NCBI RefSeq assembly: GCF_001547895.1
Contig: NZ_AP014627.1
Span: forward strand, 3,599,501 to 3,663,500
Direction: 5' to 3'
DNA length: 64,000 bases
Origin: Pseudomonas sp. Os17
GTDB taxonomy: Bacteria; Pseudomonadota; Gammaproteobacteria; Pseudomonadales; Pseudomonadaceae
A program made the translations under genes and the position numbers. This document shows positions 12,896-19,975 of the stretch, piece after piece. Position 1 is the stretch's first letter. Each line of letters starts with the position of its first letter. The notes below the pieces were generated by a model. The model did not search any database, was not told where the DNA came from, and was given only the letters and a program-made list of their open reading frames with translations.

Positions 12896-15046
12896 ATGAG
12901 CCGATCCAAGCAGACTCCCGAGCACGAACCCTCGCGCATCCGTGAAGGCCTGCCCTTCCCGCTGGGCGCCACCTGGGATGGACTGGGCGTCAACTTCGCG
13001 CTGTTCTCGGCCAACGCCACCCGGGTCGAGCTGTGCCTGTTCGACGCCACCGGCGAAGTGGAACTGGAGCGCATCGAACTGCCGGAATACACCGACGAGA
13101 TCTTCCACGGCTACCTGCCCGATGCCCACCCCGGGCTGATCTACGGCTACCGGGTGTACGGCCCCTACGACCCGGCCAACGGCCACCGCTTCAACCCCAA
13201 CAAACTGCTGATCGACCCCTATGCCAAGCAACTGGTGGGGGAACTGAAATGGTCCGAGGCGCTGTTCGGCTACACCATCGGCCACCCGGATGCCGACCTG
13301 AGCTTCGATGAGCGTGACAGCGCGCCCTTCGTGCCCAAGTGCAAGGTCATCGATCCGGCCCACACCTGGGGCCACGACCAGCAGATCAACGTGCCCTGGG
13401 ACAAGACGGTCATCTACGAGACCCACGTGCGCGGCTTCACCATGCGCCATCCCGCGGTGCCGGAAAACCTGCGGGGCAGCTTTGCCGGGCTGATGGTCGA
13501 CGACGTGCTGGAGCACATTCGCAAGCTGGGGGTGTCGTCGGTGGAGCTGTTGCCGATCCACGCCTTCGTCAACGATCAGCACCTGCTGCACAAGGGCATG
13601 ACCAATTACTGGGGCTACAACAGCATCGCCTTCTTCGCCCCGGACCCACGCTACCTGGCCAGCGGCAAGATCGCCGAATTCAAGGAAATGGTCGCGCACC
13701 TGCACGAAGCCGGGCTGGAGGTGCTGCTGGACGTGGTCTACAACCACACCGCCGAAGGCAACGAACAAGGCCCGACCCTGTCCATGCGCGGCATCGACAA
13801 CGCCTCCTACTACCGCCTGATGCCCGACGACAAGCGCTTCTACATCAACGATTCCGGCACCGGCAACACCCTGGACCTGAGTCATCCCTGCGTGCTGCAG
13901 ATGGTCACCGACTCCCTGCGCTACTGGGCCACGGAAATGCACGTGGACGGTTTCCGCTTCGACCTGGCGACCATCCTCGGCCGCTACCACGATGGTTTCG
14001 ACGAGCGCCACAGCTTCCTCGTGGCCTGCCGCCAGGACCCGGTGCTGCGCCAGGTGAAGCTGATCGCCGAACCCTGGGACTGCGGCCCCGGCGGCTACCA
14101 GGTGGGGCGCTTTCCGCCGGGCTGGGTGGAATGGAACGACCGTTTCCGCGATACCGTGCGCGCCTTCTGGAAAGGCGACGACGGCCAGTTGGCGGACTTC
14201 GCCGGGCGCATGACCGCCTCCGGCGAGATGTTCAACCAGCGCGGCCGGCGGCCCTATGCGTCGGTCAACTTCGTCACCGCCCACGACGGCTTCACCCTGC
14301 GCGACCTGGTGTCCTACAACGACAAGCACAACCAGGCCAACGACGAGAACAACCAGGACGGCAGCGACAACAACCTGTCCTGGAACCATGGCGTCGAAGG
14401 CCCCACCGACGACCCCGAGATCAACGCCCTGCGCCTGCGCCAGATGCGCAACTTCTTCGCCACCCTGCTGCTGGCCCAGGGCACGCCGATGCTGGTGGCC
14501 GGCGACGAATTCGCCCGCACCCAGCACGGCAACAACAACGCCTACTGCCAGGACAGCGAGATCGGCTGGGTCAACTGGGAGCTGGACGCCGACGGCAAGG
14601 CGCTGCTCAAGTTCGTCAAGCGCCTGATCAAGCTGCGCCTGAACTACCCGATCCTGCGGCGCGGGCGCTTCCTGGTCGGCAGCTACAACGAGGACCTCGG
14701 GGTCAAGGACGTCACCTGGCTGGCCCCGGACGGCAACGAGATGAGCACCGAACAATGGCAAGACCCCCACGGCCGTTGCCTGGGCATGCTGCTGGACGGC
14801 CGCGCCCAGGAAACCGGGATCCTGCGCCCCGGGGCCGACGCCACGGTGCTGCTGGTGGTCAATGCCCATCACGACATCGTCAATTTCCGCCTGCCCGAGG
14901 TGCCGGCCGGCGAGTTCTGGAGCTGCATGCTCGACACCAACCAGCCGGCGGTGCGCGGCCAGGAGCGCTTCGCCTTCGGCCACAGCTACTCGGTGACCGG
15001 GCGTTCGCTGCTGCTGTTCGAGTTGCAGCATGAGGAAGAAGACTGA
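12896..15046 (+). CDS. glgX: Glycogen debranching enzyme GlgX
   Basis: A 716-residue GH13_11 isoamylase-type enzyme that hydrolyses alpha-1,6 branch points, mainly of short side chains, giving linear malto-oligosaccharides for MalQ and TreY. A CBM48 domain (P-L-G-A-T-W-D-G-L-G-V-N-F-A) opens the protein. Catalytic residues are visible: Asp356 in G-F-R-F-D-L-A-T-I-L-G, Glu392 in L-I-A-E-P-W-D-C-G-P-G-G-Y, and the third Asp in T-A-H-D-G-F-T-L-R-D-L-V-S-Y. The ATG at 12896 is chosen because GCAGGAGCAACC precedes it and it opens the family-like N-terminus. The next gene begins 1 nt after the stop. Confidence 0.95.
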   Translation: MSRSKQTPEHEPSRIREGLPFPLGATWDGLGVNFALFSANATRVELCLFDATGEVELERIELPEYTDEIFHGYLPDAHPGLIYGYRVYGPYDPANGHRFNPNKLLIDPYAKQLVGELKWSEALFGYTIGHPDADLSFDERDSAPFVPKCKVIDPAHTWGHDQQINVPWDKTVIYETHVRGFTMRHPAVPENLRGSFAGLMVDDVLEHIRKLGVSSVELLPIHAFVNDQHLLHKGMTNYWGYNSIAFFAPDPRYLASGKIAEFKEMVAHLHEAGLEVLLDVVYNHTAEGNEQGPTLSMRGIDNASYYRLMPDDKRFYINDSGTGNTLDLSHPCVLQMVTDSLRYWATEMHVDGFRFDLATILGRYHDGFDERHSFLVACRQDPVLRQVKLIAEPWDCGPGGYQVGRFPPGWVEWNDRFRDTVRAFWKGDDGQLADFAGRMTASGEMFNQRGRRPYASVNFVTAHDGFTLRDLVSYNDKHNQANDENNQDGSDNNLSWNHGVEGPTDDPEINALRLRQMRNFFATLLLAQGTPMLVAGDEFARTQHGNNNAYCQDSEIGWVNWELDADGKALLKFVKRLIKLRLNYPILRRGRFLVGSYNEDLGVKDVTWLAPDGNEMSTEQWQDPHGRCLGMLLDGRAQETGILRPGADATVLLVVNAHHDIVNFRLPEVPAGEFWSCMLDTNQPAVRGQERFAFGHSYSVTGRSLLLFELQHEEED

Positions 15047-15047
15047 A

Positions 15048-16061
15048 ATGGACCTGCAAGCCTTCCTGCGCCATTACCCCGACCTGGGGCACGCCGATGC
15101 CCCGGCGCTGGGCCTGTGCCTGGAGGCTCTGGTGGCCGCCGGCCTGGATCGCCTGCCGCGGCCGGCGAGCGGTGCCACCCTGCAGCGTTGGCAGGCCCTG
15201 GCCCGGGTCGCCGGACATGACCTGGGCCTGTGCAAGCTCTACGAGGGACACACCGATGCCCTGGCGATCATGCAAGAGCTGGACTGCACCGTCGCCCCCG
15301 GCACCACCTGGGGCACCTGGGCCGCCGAACCGCCCCGGGCCCGGGTTCAGGCCGACGCCGACGGCCCGCACTGCCGCTTGCGCGGGACCAAGGCCTGGTG
15401 CTCGGGAGCCGCGGTGCTCAGCCATGCCCTGCTCACCGCCTGGGACAGCGCGGGGCGCCAGCGCCTGGTGGCGGTGGCCCTGGACCAGCCCGGGGTGCAG
15501 GTCGAGCGCGGCGGCTGGCAGGCGGTGGGCATGGCCAATACCGACAGCCGGCAGGTGCAGTTCGACCAGGCACGGGGCCATTGGGTCGGCGGGCCGGACG
15601 ACTACCTGCAGCGCCCGGGTTTCTGGCAGGGCGCCATGGGCATCGCCGCCTGCTGGCTGGGCGCGGCCCAGGCCATCGCCCTGCCGCTGCGCGAACACTG
15701 CGCCAAGCACGACGAGCCCCACGCCCAGGCGCATCTGGGGGCGGTGGACAGCGCCCTGCATCAGGCCGCCTGCGTCCTGCGCCACAGTGCCCGGCAGCTG
15801 GACCAGGCCCCCGACGCCGATTGCCAACTGCTGGCCCGGCGCACCCGGGCCGTGACCGAAGCCAGCGTCGACAGCCTGCTGCGGCATGTCGGTCGGGCCC
15901 TGGGCGCGGGCCCCTATTGCCTGGACCGGCACTTCGCCCGGCTGCTGGCCGACCTGCCGGTGTTTATCCGCCAGAGCCATGCCGAACGCGACCTGGCCCA
16001 GCTCGGCCAACAGTTGGCCGGCGAAGCCGCTGCGGCGGACCGGGGAGGATGGTGCCTGTGA
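15048..16061 (+). CDS. Acyl-CoA dehydrogenase-like flavoprotein
   Basis: A 337-residue protein resembling the acyl-CoA dehydrogenase superfamily. The middle domain is recognisable from L-R-G-T-K-A-W-C-S-G-A and G-M-A-N-T-D-S-R-Q-V-Q-F-D, the positions where FAD-linked members have K-x-F-x-S-G-A and G-x-x-x-T-x-S. A helical C-terminal domain follows. It is shorter than typical members (about 380-400 residues), with a reduced N-terminal helical domain, and no catalytic Glu can be assigned with confidence. Substrate is unknown. It begins 1 nt after glgX and overlaps the PIG-L gene by 4 nt (GTGA), making it the first gene of a tightly coupled four-gene module. The GAGGAAGAA stretch at the end of glgX serves as ribosome-binding site. 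Confidence 0.8.
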   Translation: MDLQAFLRHYPDLGHADAPALGLCLEALVAAGLDRLPRPASGATLQRWQALARVAGHDLGLCKLYEGHTDALAIMQELDCTVAPGTTWGTWAAEPPRARVQADADGPHCRLRGTKAWCSGAAVLSHALLTAWDSAGRQRLVAVALDQPGVQVERGGWQAVGMANTDSRQVQFDQARGHWVGGPDDYLQRPGFWQGAMGIAACWLGAAQAIALPLREHCAKHDEPHAQAHLGAVDSALHQAACVLRHSARQLDQAPDADCQLLARRTRAVTEASVDSLLRHVGRALGAGPYCLDRHFARLLADLPVFIRQSHAERDLAQLGQQLAGEAAAADRGGWCL

Positions 16062-16816
16062 AAGCCAATCCGATTGTCGGCCGTGGCACTTCACTGAAGG
16101 CCTGGCAGGCCTCCTCGCACCTGCGGGCGATGGCCTGCGTGGATATCCAGACCCTGGTTGCGCCCGGTTCGCGGGCGGTGATCGTGGCCCCGCACCCGGA
16201 CGACGAAATCCTCGGGTGCGGCGGCCTCCTGCAATTGCTGGCGGCCGCGGGACGGGAACTGTTGCTGATTTCGGTCACCGATGGCAGCGCCAGCCATCCC
16301 GGCTCACCGCGCTGGCCCATCGAGCGCCTGAGCCTGGTGCGGCCCCAGGAGTCCGCCGAAGGCCTGCGCCGCCTGGACCTGCCACTGGCGCGGATCACAT
16401 GGCTGCGCGGCGGCTTCCAGGACAGCCGCGTAGCCCGGGACGAAGCGGCCCTGGCGCGCTACATCCAGGCGTGCCTGCGGCCGGACGATGTGCTGTTCAG
16501 CACCTGGTGCGAGGACGGCCACTGCGACCACGAGGCCGTGGGCCGGGCCAGCGCCCTGGCCGCCCGGGCCGCGGGTGCGCGCCTCAGGGAGCTACCCATC
16601 TGGGGCTGGCACTGGGCCGACCCCGAGGGCCGCCAGTTGCCCTGGGAGCGCGCCCGCAAGGTGCTGCTCAGCCCCGCCCAGGTGGCACGCAAGCGTCACG
16701 CCATCCAGGCCTTCGCCAGCCAGCTGGAGGGCGACCCGGACATTGGCCTGGCACCGGTACTGGCGCCACACATCATCGAGCGTCTGCTGCAACCCTTCGA
16801 GGTGGTATTCCTATGA
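16058..16816 (+). CDS. PIG-L family deacetylase (intact motif)
   Basis: A 252-residue protein of the PIG-L/LmbE family, zinc-dependent enzymes that remove the acetyl group from N-acetylglucosamine-type conjugates (MshB, BshB and PIG-L are characterised members). The zinc/base motif V-A-P-H-P-D-D-E is intact at about residues 46-53, and the third metal His appears in H-C-D-H-E-A-V-G. The GTG at 16058 is chosen because it overlaps the upstream stop as GTGA and lies about 10 nt after GGGGAGG; the ATG at 16049 would sit directly on that site. It overlaps the methyltransferase gene by 4 nt. A paralogue with a changed motif lies at 18354-19112. Confidence 0.88.
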   Translation: MKANPIVGRGTSLKAWQASSHLRAMACVDIQTLVAPGSRAVIVAPHPDDEILGCGGLLQLLAAAGRELLLISVTDGSASHPGSPRWPIERLSLVRPQESAEGLRRLDLPLARITWLRGGFQDSRVARDEAALARYIQACLRPDDVLFSTWCEDGHCDHEAVGRASALAARAAGARLRELPIWGWHWADPEGRQLPWERARKVLLSPAQVARKRHAIQAFASQLEGDPDIGLAPVLAPHIIERLLQPFEVVFL

Positions 16817-17412
16817 GCGTCGACAGTCACTATTTCGAAGGGCTGTTCGCCCGGGACCAGGACCCCTGGGCCTTTCGCCGACGCTGGTACGAACAGCGCA
16901 AGCGCGCCATCACCCTGGCCAGCCTGCCGCGGCGCCATTACCGGAGCATTTTCGAACCCGGATGCGCCAACGGCGAACTCAGCGCCGAACTGGCGACCCG
17001 CTGCGACAGCCTGCTGTGCTGCGACACCGCACAGACTGCGGTCAGCCTGGCCCGGCAACGCCTGCGTTCGATGCCCCAGGCCCGGGTGGAATGCGCGCGC
17101 CTGCCCGAGGACTGGCCCGACGGTCCCTTCGAGCTGATTGTCATCAGCGAGCTTGGCTACTACCTGGACCCTGGGGATCTGGCGCGCCTGGTGACGCGGG
17201 CCCTGGGCTCCCTGGCCGCCGACGGTCAGTTGCTGGCCTGTCATTGGCGTCCGCCCATCGCCGGCTGTCCCCTGGAGGGCGGGCAAGTGCATGCAATGCT
17301 CCACCGGCAGTTGCAGCTGCCACGCCTGCTGGAACATCAGGATGCGGATTTTCTCCTCGACCTCTGGGGCCGCGACGCGGATTCGGTCGCGACCCTGGAG
17401 GGCCTGCGATGA
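16813..17412 (+). CDS. NodS-like SAM-dependent methyltransferase
   Basis: A 199-residue class I methyltransferase. The opening Y-F-E-G-L-F-A-R-D-Q-D-P-W-A-F resembles the N-terminus of NodS-type proteins, and the SAM-binding motif I is F-E-P-G-C-A-N-G-E-L-S at about residues 43-53. Post-motifs I-V-I-S-E-L-G-Y-Y and L-L-A-C-H-W-R-P-P follow. NodS of rhizobia N-methylates the free amine of a deacetylated glucosamine end. A similar reaction on the product of the neighbouring deacetylase would fit, but is inference. It overlaps both neighbours by 4 nt. Confidence 0.85.
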   Translation: MSVDSHYFEGLFARDQDPWAFRRRWYEQRKRAITLASLPRRHYRSIFEPGCANGELSAELATRCDSLLCCDTAQTAVSLARQRLRSMPQARVECARLPEDWPDGPFELIVISELGYYLDPGDLARLVTRALGSLAADGQLLACHWRPPIAGCPLEGGQVHAMLHRQLQLPRLLEHQDADFLLDLWGRDADSVATLEGLR

Positions 17413-18062
17413 TCGGAGTGGTGATTCCCGCCCATAACGAAGAGCAACTGCTGGCCGACTGCCTGCAATGCGCCCTGACAGCCGCCAGCCACCCCGACCT
17501 GAAGGAGGACGTGCTGATCCTGGTGGTGCTCGACAGCTGTTCCGACCGCTCCCTGAGCATCGCCCGCCAGTACGCCGTCCAGCACCTGCAATTGCAGGTG
17601 CGCAATGTCGGACGGGCGCGCGCCGCCGGCGCGCAATGGCTGCTGCAGGCCGGGGCACGCTGGCTGTCGTGCACCGACGCCGACAGCCGGGTGCCCGCGG
17701 ACTGGCTGGTGGCCCAGCTGGCCCAGGGCACCGACGCCGTCTGCGGCACGGTCACCGTCGACAGCTGGAGCGAAGGCTTCGCGCCCCAGGCCCAGGCCCG
17801 CTACCACGATGCCTACCAGAGCGCCGATGAGCATCGGCATGTCCATGGCGCCAACCTGGGCATCAGCGCCGCGGCCTATGTTCGCGCCGGCGGTTTCGAA
17901 GCCCTGGCGTGTCACGAGGACGTGCAACTGGTGCGACAGCTGCAGCGCAGCGGCGCCAGCATCGCCTGGAGCCGACACCCGCAGGTGATTACCAGCGGGC
18001 GCCTGGACAGCCGGGCCCGGGGCGGCTTTGGCGATTACCTGCAAAGCCTGGTCGAACCTTGA
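17409..18062 (+). CDS. Glycosyltransferase family 2 protein
   Basis: A 217-residue GT-A-fold glycosyltransferase. The N-terminal V-V-I-P-A-H-N-E-E and the metal-binding D-A-D motif in C-T-D-A-D-S-R-V-P (about residue 93) are typical of GT2. The C-terminal part has G-A-N-L-G-I-S and G-G-F-E-A-L-A-C-H-E-D-V-Q-L, the usual acceptor-site region. No membrane segment is seen, so it is cytosolic. Donor and acceptor are unknown. It is the last gene of the four-gene chain that starts at 15048, overlapping the methyltransferase by 4 nt. The 291-nt gap that follows has a small palindrome (18125-18139) and no gene I can support. Confidence 0.85.
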   Translation: MIGVVIPAHNEEQLLADCLQCALTAASHPDLKEDVLILVVLDSCSDRSLSIARQYAVQHLQLQVRNVGRARAAGAQWLLQAGARWLSCTDADSRVPADWLVAQLAQGTDAVCGTVTVDSWSEGFAPQAQARYHDAYQSADEHRHVHGANLGISAAAYVRAGGFEALACHEDVQLVRQLQRSGASIAWSRHPQVITSGRLDSRARGGFGDYLQSLVEP

Positions 18063-18353: not shown

Positions 18354-19112
18354 ATGAAAGCCATACCCGCAGTAGACAGCAGCTGGTCCAGCCAGATATG
18401 GAACTCCGCCCGCCGACTGGCCGAGGTCCCGGCCATCAACCTGGCCAGCCTGGTTCCGCCAGGTTCACGGGCGGTGATCGTCGCCCCCCACCCCGGTGAC
18501 GAGGTGGTCGCCAGCGGCGGACTGCTGCAAGTGCTGGCCCACCACGGCCACCCTTTGCAGTTGATCTCCATCAGCGACGGCAGCGCCAGCCACCCGGGCT
18601 CGGAACGCTGGCCCAAGCGCCGCCTCAGCGTGTTCCGCCCCCAGGAAAGCGCCGAGGCCCTGCGTCGCCTGGGCTTGCCGCTGCACAGCCTGAAGTGGAT
18701 TCGCGGCGGCTTTGCCGACAACGCCCTGAGCGAGCGCGAGCAGCAACTGGTGCCCTTCATCAGCCGCTACCTGCGCGACAGCGACGTGGTGTTCAGCACC
18801 TGGCGCGCCGACGGCAACCTCGATCACGAAGCGGTGGGCCGGGCGACGGCCAAGGCGACGGCCCTGGTGGGCGCACGCTTCTACGAAATTCCGCTGTGGG
18901 CCTGGCACTGGCCGTCGCGGGAGGAGCATCAGATCCCCTGGCAGCGGGCCCGCAAGCTGCGCCTGGACACCTGGACCGTGGCCCGCAAGCGGCATGCTGC
19001 CCACGCCTATGCCAGCCAGCTGCAGGGCGAGCCGGAGATCGGCCTGGAGCCGGCGCTGTCTCCGGTGCTGCTGGAGCGCTTGCGCCTGCCCTACGAGATC
19101 ATCCTGATGTAG
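18354..19112 (+). CDS. PIG-L family protein with altered catalytic motif
   Basis: A 252-residue paralogue of the deacetylase at 16058, with the same length and parallel motifs throughout (S-R-A-V-I-V-A-P-H-P, I-S-D-G-S-A-S-H-P-G-S, F-S-T-W, D-H-E-A-V-G-R-A). The family motif H-P-D-D-E reads H-P-G-D-E here. In MshB the lost Asp is the general base, while the retained His, Asp and distal His bind the metal. The protein may be inactive, use another base, or bind substrate without catalysis. It stands alone between the GT2 gene and the YbhP-like gene. The ATG at 18354 follows GGGACGTGACACCTC. Confidence 0.85.
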   Translation: MKAIPAVDSSWSSQIWNSARRLAEVPAINLASLVPPGSRAVIVAPHPGDEVVASGGLLQVLAHHGHPLQLISISDGSASHPGSERWPKRRLSVFRPQESAEALRRLGLPLHSLKWIRGGFADNALSEREQQLVPFISRYLRDSDVVFSTWRADGNLDHEAVGRATAKATALVGARFYEIPLWAWHWPSREEHQIPWQRARKLRLDTWTVARKRHAAHAYASQLQGEPEIGLEPALSPVLLERLRLPYEIILM

Positions 19113-19195: not shown

Positions 19196-19975
19196 GTGAG
19201 CATCGATTGCCCCCCTCAGCCCGACCCACCAGGCATCAGCCGCCTGCGGGTGCTGACCGTCAATACTCACAAGGGCTTCACCGCCCTCAACCGGCGCTTC
19301 ATTCTTCCGGAGCTGCGCGAGGCGGTACGCAGCACCCGGGCCGATCTGGTGTTTCTCCAGGAAGTGCTGGGGGAGCATGAGCGCCACGCCTCACGCCTGA
19401 ACAACTGGCCCGAGCAGTCGCAATACGAATTTCTCGCCGACAGCATGTGGAGCGATTACGCCTACGGGCGCAATGCGGTGTACCCCGACGGCCATCACGG
19501 CAACGCCCTGCTGTCGAAGTTTCCCATCCGCCAGTACCGCAACCTTGATGTCTCCATCACCGGTCCCGAACGCCGGGGCCTGCTGCACTGCGTACTGGAT
19601 GTGCCGGGCCACGCCGAAGTGCACGCCATCTGCGTGCACCTGAGCCTGCTGGAGAGCCATCGGCAACAGCAACTGGCCCTGCTGTGCCAGTTGCTCGAAT
19701 CCCTGCCCGCCGAGGCGCCGGTGATCATCGCCGGCGACTTCAACGACTGGCAGATGCACGGCAATGTCACCCTGGGGCGACGGGACGACCTGCACGAAGC
19801 CTTCGAGCGCCATCACGGCCGCCCGGCCAAGACTTACCCGGCCCGCTGGCCGTTGCTGCGCCTGGACCGCATCTACCTGCGCAACGCCAGCAGCCATCGA
19901 CCGCAGATTCTCGGCAACAAACCCTGGACCCACCTCTCCGACCACCTGCCCCTGGCGGTGGAAGTGCACCTCTAG
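19196..19975 (+). CDS. YbhP-like endonuclease/exonuclease/phosphatase-fold protein
   Basis: A 259-residue protein close to E. coli YbhP along its whole length: L-T-V-N-T-H-K-G-F-T near the start, F-L-Q-E-V-L-G (metal-binding Glu), Y-G-R-N-A-V-Y-P-D-G-H-H-G-N-A, A-G-D-F-N-D-W, and the C-terminal L-S-D-H-L-P-L-A. These are the catalytic motifs of the Mg-dependent EEP superfamily (DNase I/sphingomyelinase fold). In E. coli ybhP precedes clsB (cardiolipin synthase) and ybhN. Here it ends 122 nt before the oppositely oriented glgB and neither partner is present. The start is GTG at 19196 after CACAGGAGC. The natural substrate is unsettled. Confidence 0.88.
   Translation: MSIDCPPQPDPPGISRLRVLTVNTHKGFTALNRRFILPELREAVRSTRADLVFLQEVLGEHERHASRLNNWPEQSQYEFLADSMWSDYAYGRNAVYPDGHHGNALLSKFPIRQYRNLDVSITGPERRGLLHCVLDVPGHAEVHAICVHLSLLESHRQQQLALLCQLLESLPAEAPVIIAGDFNDWQMHGNVTLGRRDDLHEAFERHHGRPAKTYPARWPLLRLDRIYLRNASSHRPQILGNKPWTHLSDHLPLAVEVHL

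Follow-up and report, generated by a model that had tools for sequence, protein, structure and literature searches.

What do four genes make that stand directly behind a trehalose and glucan operon, and does their product belong with these stress sugars? In the 64,000-nucleotide stretch of Pseudomonas sp. Os17 analyzed here (contig NZ_AP014627.1, positions 3,599,501 to 3,663,500; hereafter the window), glgX is followed by genes for a flavoprotein, a PIG-L deacetylase, a NodS-like methyltransferase and a GT2 glycosyltransferase. A preliminary description had compared this set with rhizobial nod genes and proposed a protectant or surface glycolipid as its product. We confirm that the four genes form a real and widespread module. 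The best reading is a cytosolic pathway whose product is an amino-sugar glycoside, N-methylated and oxidised by a flavin enzyme, and we regard the case for it as evenly balanced. The module genes have the following coordinates in the window:

15048..16061, + strand: flavoprotein of acyl-CoA dehydrogenase fold, probably of monooxygenase type and not a dehydrogenase (337 residues; PF02770; AlphaFold2 model; PDB relatives; no dehydrogenase glutamate)
16058..16816, + strand: PIG-L (LmbE-like) de-N-acetylase with the full set of catalytic residues (GTG start; 252 residues; PF02585)
16813..17412, + strand: NodS-like S-adenosylmethionine-dependent methyltransferase (199 residues; PF05401 and PF13649; PDB relatives 4isc and NodS 3ofj)
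17409..18062, + strand: small, apparently soluble GT2 glycosyltransferase (217 residues; PF00535; DxD at 90-92, ED at 170-171; GT-A fold)

A widespread four-gene module

The tight packing first described for these genes agrees with the open reading frame (ORF) list: all three gene-to-gene overlaps are 4 nucleotides, and 1 nucleotide separates the end of glgX (15046) from the beginning of the flavoprotein ORF (15048). Each protein matches its Pfam family above the gathering score, with 36.4 bits for PF02770, 81.3 for PF02585 (gathering score 28.2), 37.6 for PF05401 NodS (cut-off 24) and 51.8 for PF00535, and the methyltransferase additionally matches PF13649.

In 35 other Pseudomonas genomes (G001-G035), methyltransferase and flavoprotein occur together in 21, are both missing from 14 and never occur singly (Fisher p = 4e-10, with kinship between the genomes ignored). 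The flavoprotein is found in 124 of 199 Pseudomonas genomes (E up to 1e-30) and in 34 of 398 genomes of the host phylum, where a clear gap lies between E = 2.7e-32 and 8e-25; the Os17 genome is counted in both. The flavoprotein match is split in two pieces in the Pseudomonas genomes G467 and G494, perhaps because the copies have decayed.

Beyond the genus, species genomes were scanned with a methyltransferase alignment that had a Rubrobacter sequence at its head, and the best 80 of 578 loci were retained. These loci were chosen by the methyltransferase alone, and the other members were then sought by profile searches, the GT2 within 6 kb. The flavoprotein is present at 77 of the 80 loci, a PIG-L at 68, a CE4 polysaccharide deacetylase instead at 4 and some GT2 at 73. 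Flavoprotein, PIG-L and methyltransferase follow each other in this order on one strand at 66 loci, and at 35 the PIG-L and the methyltransferase share one ORF. The flavoprotein is missing at 3 loci, a deacetylase at 8 and the GT2 at 7, in a set where some contigs stop nearby. Of all members the GT2 varies most: 36 of the 73 belong to a close kind that scores at least 148 bits and always lies on the same strand, and the remaining 37 do not exceed 120 bits, with 26 of these on the opposite strand.

Two further sets were chosen by the flavoprotein. The 29 proteobacterial loci of other genera have the methyltransferase in 28 cases, the PIG-L in 24, the GT2 in 23 and all of them in 21, and for the 31 sampled Pseudomonas loci the corresponding counts are 31, 30, 29 and 28. 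A GT2 was found in all six genomes searched for one (Os17 included), although it lies away from the module in G023, G031, G290 and G302 and about 4 kb upstream of it in G020. Full cores occur in Pseudomonadota, Actinomycetota, Bacteroidota, Cyanobacteriota (Aphanocapsa, L151) and Deinococcota (Deinococcus gobiensis, L032). Because gene order and composition are conserved across loci of five phyla, the association goes beyond chance, and the members are often together elsewhere, a point that the preliminary description had asked to check. No account of the four-gene set or its pathway was found in our literature searches.

The module genes are also fused with each other and with other domains. 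By Pfam, GT2 and flavoprotein lie in one ORF in Methylobacterium aquaticum (L035:4872-7235), and a Kitasatospora plasmid joins the GT2 to a ferritin-like domain in one open frame (L030:8612-10036), for which the record annotates a ferritin-like protein alone. Larger clusters are seen in Pedobacter-type Bacteroidota and in some Proteobacteria, where an additional GT2, a GT4 and a GT28-like protein (family X5) surround the core. The example of family X5 at L132:8566-9648 is GT28/MurG-like, at the edge of the Pfam threshold, and the family was undetected in the Os17 genome by a search run without a positive control. The Pseudomonas four-gene form may be a reduced version of this larger cluster.

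Predicted chemistry of the four enzymes

The module PIG-L contains the motif H-P-D-D-E and, later, D-G-H-C-D-H. The intact first motif had already been pointed out, and the full catalytic set (H46, D48, D49, E50, D153, H155, D157 and H158) is present in 127 of 127 module PIG-Ls. In MshB chemistry, from which the residue roles are taken, such residues act as general base, transition-state histidine and zinc ligands. The PF02585 score together with the metal ligands and the catalytic Asp and His places the protein among the PIG-L/LmbE de-N-acetylases. Its nearest solved structures are TT1542, diacetylchitobiose deacetylases and BshB, and it scores below the NCBIfam equivalog cut-offs for BshB1 (37.2 against 182.5 bits) and BshB2 (23 against 195.25 bits).

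Five Rubrobacter-type loci (L033, L126, L127, L129, L136) have a CE4 polysaccharide deacetylase in the place of the PIG-L, and all five of these proteins carry TFDDG and HxxxH motifs. The best NCBIfam family of the one that was scanned (L033) is NodB (TIGR04243), at 113.4 bits and thus below the equivalog cut-off of 240. Since two unrelated deacetylase folds occupy the same place, there is a strong argument that the module step is a de-N-acetylation, and a substitute of the NodB kind argues for a sugar of the N-acetylglucosamine (GlcNAc) type.

In a PDB profile search with the methyltransferase, 4isc (named only "methyltransferase") ranks first at 240 bits, followed by NodS (3ofj) at 98.9 bits as the best characterised relative and then by phosphoethanolamine N-methyltransferases at 59 bits. 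The protein reaches 47.8 bits against the 300 bits of the NodS equivalog NF041650 in NCBIfam. N-methyltransferase activity is the natural reading of these relationships. Deacetylation followed by N-methylation was the logic put forward in the preliminary description; it agrees with NodS as the best characterised PDB relative and with the replacement of the PIG-L by a NodB-type CE4 enzyme. We consider it likely that an amino sugar is first de-N-acetylated by the PIG-L and then N-methylated by the methyltransferase.

The GT2 is modelled by AlphaFold2 with a GT-A fold (predicted local distance difference test score, pLDDT, 93.0), and its DxD and ED motifs were placed by alignment. Characterised enzymes are all remote relatives of it, and a kinship with amino-sugar enzymes, seen for the methyltransferase through NodS, may or may not extend to the GT2. 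NodC is a membrane-embedded, processive GT2 with membrane segments. A likeness to it is not supported for the module GT2, which has 217 residues, a 19-residue hydropathy maximum of 1.21 and no NodC among its NCBIfam hits.

The rhizobial nod pathway de-N-acetylates and N-methylates a chitooligosaccharide. Like NodB-NodS-NodC, the module clusters a deacetylase, a NodS-related methyltransferase and a GT2, and its Rubrobacter-type loci have a NodB-type deacetylase. It differs in that most loci use a PIG-L and not a CE4 enzyme, that the methyltransferase scores far below the NodS cut-off, that the GT2 is small and soluble, and that there is an extra flavoprotein and no acyltransferase among the families annotated.

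Public records annotate the module flavoprotein as an acyl-CoA dehydrogenase. The PF02770 match covers the middle domain only, and the AlphaFold2 model (pLDDT 93.2, predicted template-modelling score 0.92) has the acyl-CoA dehydrogenase fold. In a PDB profile search, DszC (105 bits), MsuC (96) and TdsC (91) are at the top, the five best entries all being one of these. They are followed at 90 bits by 5gj7 and 5z8t, one named as an acyl-CoA dehydrogenase and the other as a flavin-containing monooxygenase. Entries named only as dehydrogenase begin at 88 bits, and the amino-sugar N-oxygenases KijD3 (81), nitrososynthase (66) and DnmZ (64) also appear. Foldseek puts 5gj7, titled putative acyl-CoA dehydrogenase, in row 1 and monooxygenases (5z8t, MsuC, TdsC) in rows 2-5. 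VIA-align ties the monooxygenase and dehydrogenase groups and does not discriminate between them. Residues weigh more here than fold ranking.

Seven stretches were fetched for the residue comparison, of which L207-L209 contain MsuC-like proteins and L210-L212 canonical dehydrogenases, and L206 gave no such protein. At position 310 the canonical enzymes have a Glu, which we take to be the catalytic base at the position of MCAD Glu376, whereas all 56 module flavoproteins have H, P, S, A or Q and never Glu. Gln309 is invariant in the 56, where the MsuC-like comparison proteins have His, and Trp157, common to the MsuC-like group, is present in 51. Residue 195, presumably the counterpart of the alternative Glu of isovaleryl-CoA dehydrogenase-type enzymes (judged by eye), is Gly in 52 and Asp in 4, in a comparison whose reference proteins included no isovaleryl-CoA-type dehydrogenase. 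The missing glutamate speaks against acyl-CoA dehydrogenase or desaturase activity, and with it against the desaturated acyl group that had been suggested for the product.

With monooxygenases as its nearest sequence relatives and the dehydrogenase Glu absent, the flavoprotein groups by sequence with the group D flavin monooxygenases and amino-sugar N-oxygenases (DszC, MsuC, KijD3, DnmZ, ORF36 nitrososynthase), which likewise have the acyl-CoA dehydrogenase fold without that Glu. It shares a C-S-G-A segment with DszC and Trp157 with MsuC-like proteins, but is shorter and has Gln309 in place of their His. On its sequence, we lean towards an oxygenase-type enzyme; that it oxidises nitrogen is a tentative suggestion. 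ChmG, annotated as an acyl-CoA dehydrogenase, without that Glu and KijD3-like, is a proved N-oxygenase according to the sections available of PMC10849742. At six loci (L033, L126, L127, L128, L129, L136), a pyridine-nucleotide reductase gene related to PF07992 lies between the methyltransferase and GT2 genes. As a separate observation, the Deinococcus gobiensis flavoprotein (L032:4899-6200) is extended at its N-terminus by 430 residues, which resemble glycoside hydrolases only faintly.

The glgX and stress context

The position behind glgX is frequent in Pseudomonas, with the module directly downstream of glgX at 22 of the 31 loci. It is not constant, a question that the preliminary description had raised, since at the other 9 no tre/glg gene lies closer than about 10 kb. 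The neighbouring genes in the window are:

12896..15046, + strand: glgX, the end of the upstream glgA-treZ-malQ-treY-glgX set (ORF list; start codon predicted)
18354..19112, + strand: PIG-L paralogue, probable pseudo-deacetylase (HPGDE; second histidine lost; zinc ligands kept; 55% identity to the module PIG-L)
19196..19975, + strand: endonuclease/exonuclease/phosphatase (EEP)-family protein (PF03372)

Beyond the EEP-family gene lie glgB, treS/pep2 and glgE, all on the opposite strand. The GlgA/GlgE operons of P. aeruginosa and P. syringae consist of the same glgA-treZ-malQ-treY-glgX and glgB-treS-glgE sets; in the portions of the two reports consulted, they are described as ending with glgX and the four genes are unmentioned (PMC8084333, PMC8982409). 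Both tre/glg operons of P. fluorescens are RpoS-dependent, as stated in the excerpt of PMC6372562. Relatives of the EEP-family protein at L111, L112, L117 and L121, where there are no tre/glg genes nearby, still lie 4-8 kb from the module.

The second PIG-L, overlooked in the preliminary description, qualifies the four-gene extent given there, which otherwise holds. D48 is replaced by Gly and the His at 155 is lost in 17 of 17 copies (16 Pseudomonas loci and the window), and all 17 keep H46, D49 and H158. Following MshB chemistry, we take the lost residues to be the general base and the transition-state histidine, and the kept ones to be zinc ligands. Because the catalytic Asp and His are lost and the zinc ligands kept in all copies, the protein looks like a conserved zinc-binding pseudo-deacetylase. 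Within the Pseudomonas set, it is confined to loci with the module behind glgX (16 of 22 loci against 0 of the 9 others; p = 2.5e-4).

To place the module in a stress context, genes within about 10 kb of it were compared with 40 random stretches. Any chosen stress gene is found at 14 of the 29 proteobacterial loci of other genera against 3 of the 40 random stretches (Fisher p = 1.5e-4), and catalase at 8 of 29 against 0 of 40 (p = 5e-4). The 80-locus set shows no such enrichment, neither for stress genes (10/80, p = 0.54) nor for catalase (6/80, p = 0.18). The tre/glg/ots genes are not enriched in either set (5/29, p = 0.27; 4/80, p = 0.68; 3/40 random). Single loci do have them: in L081 the module comes after glgA, the last gene of a tre/glg set with another gene order, in L066 it has glgE and glgX nearby, and in L069, L074 and L078 otsA and otsB are within about 10 kb. 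The stress link thus recurs but depends on the locus set and is not general. As tre/glg/ots genes are not enriched and 9 of the 31 genus loci are without them, trehalose is not the general partner of the module.

Plasmids carry the module as well. On an Acinetobacter ursingii plasmid (L031, 1-13142, typed mobilizable) it is accompanied by catalase, an iron-containing redox enzyme gene and otsB/otsA, perhaps as a portable stress island, and the methyltransferase is matched by 19 Acinetobacter records of the plasmid collection. A Cupriavidus plasmid combines the module with glgE, catalase and another PIG-L. For context only, A. baumannii cells that have been dried are protected by the catalase KatE and by DtpC, which is diiron-oxidase-like (PMC13232832).

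Proposed pathway and its alternatives

In the cytosolic pathway that we favor, the GT2 would transfer an N-acetylated sugar, most likely GlcNAc from uridine diphosphate (UDP)-GlcNAc, onto an acceptor. The PIG-L would strip the N-acetyl group and the NodS-like enzyme would methylate the freed amine. The flavoprotein would then oxidise the product as a flavin monooxygenase-type enzyme and not as an acyl desaturase, and quite possibly the amine itself would be oxidised, by N-hydroxylation as in the amino-sugar N-oxygenases KijD3 and DnmZ. In the many Pseudomonas where the module is placed behind glgX, this placement leads us to expect its production alongside that of trehalose and alpha-glucan under stress. 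The substrate, the order of the steps, nitrogen as the oxidised atom, co-transcription and stress protection are what we infer. A bolder version, which we consider unlikely as a whole, has a pathway in at least five phyla whose product, a cytosolic stress metabolite, would be an amino-sugar glycoside both methylated and oxygenated on nitrogen (a hydroxylamine, nitrone or N-oxide), with interchangeable PIG-L and NodB-type deacetylases and the Pseudomonas pseudo-deacetylase as a binding partner.

In bacillithiol and mycothiol synthesis (BshA/BshB, MshA/MshB), a glycosyltransferase forms an N-acetylglucosaminide that a PIG-L enzyme deacetylates. The module has the same pairing of glycosyltransferase and PIG-L deacetylase, and its product might be a low-molecular-weight cofactor or redox buffer in which methylation and oxidation replace cysteine ligation. 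BshB1, BshB2 and MshB are among the NCBIfam and PDB relatives of the PIG-L, all module enzymes look cytosolic, and the catalase near the proteobacterial loci of other genera would suit such a role. However, the PIG-L misses the BshB cut-offs, the glycosyltransferase is a GT2 and not a GT4, and a methyltransferase and a flavoprotein stand where a cysteine ligase would be expected; a cysteine-adding enzyme was not noticed, though no search was aimed at one. Catalase is also near only 6 of the loci in the 80-locus set, and we regard a redox buffer as quite unlikely.

Modification of alpha-glucan or trehalose, with the GT2 adding an amino sugar and the other three enzymes trimming and methylating it, is improbable. 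The 22 Pseudomonas loci behind glgX, the glgA, glgE and glgX neighbours in L081 and L066, and otsA/otsB on the Acinetobacter plasmid and in three further loci would fit with it, but tre/glg genes are absent around the other 9 Pseudomonas loci, elsewhere their frequency does not differ significantly from that in random stretches, and a linked trehalose operon is absent from the majority of the module carriers seen.

A surface glycolipid, with a fatty acid desaturated by the acyl-CoA dehydrogenase and the amino sugar deacetylated and methylated, is equally improbable: the fold and the Pfam middle domain of the flavoprotein, the several glycosyltransferases in the extended clusters of other phyla, as for surface glycans, and a recurrent neighbouring short-chain dehydrogenase/reductase (13 loci) whose best Pfam is named after enoyl-acyl carrier protein reductase, though the family is broad, are outweighed by the dehydrogenase glutamate in 0 of 56 module flavoproteins, by the lack of any acyltransferase or acyl carrier among ten recurrent neighbour families with one member each annotated, and by the lack of a strongly hydrophobic segment in all four module proteins (maximum 19-residue mean 1.61). 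Of the protectant or surface glycolipid first envisaged, the stress link persists in some locus sets only, and the surface glycolipid finds no support here.

Collectively, a conserved and repeatedly fused set in five phyla, for which no described product was found in the literature searched, makes the proposed N-methylated amino-sugar pathway a good target for metabolite discovery. The exchange of PIG-L for NodB-type deacetylases ties this orphan pathway to known chemistry and opens the substrate class to testing. In many Pseudomonas, the module lies behind a well-studied stress-sugar operon, and deletions aimed at trehalose or glucan could hit the module genes too.

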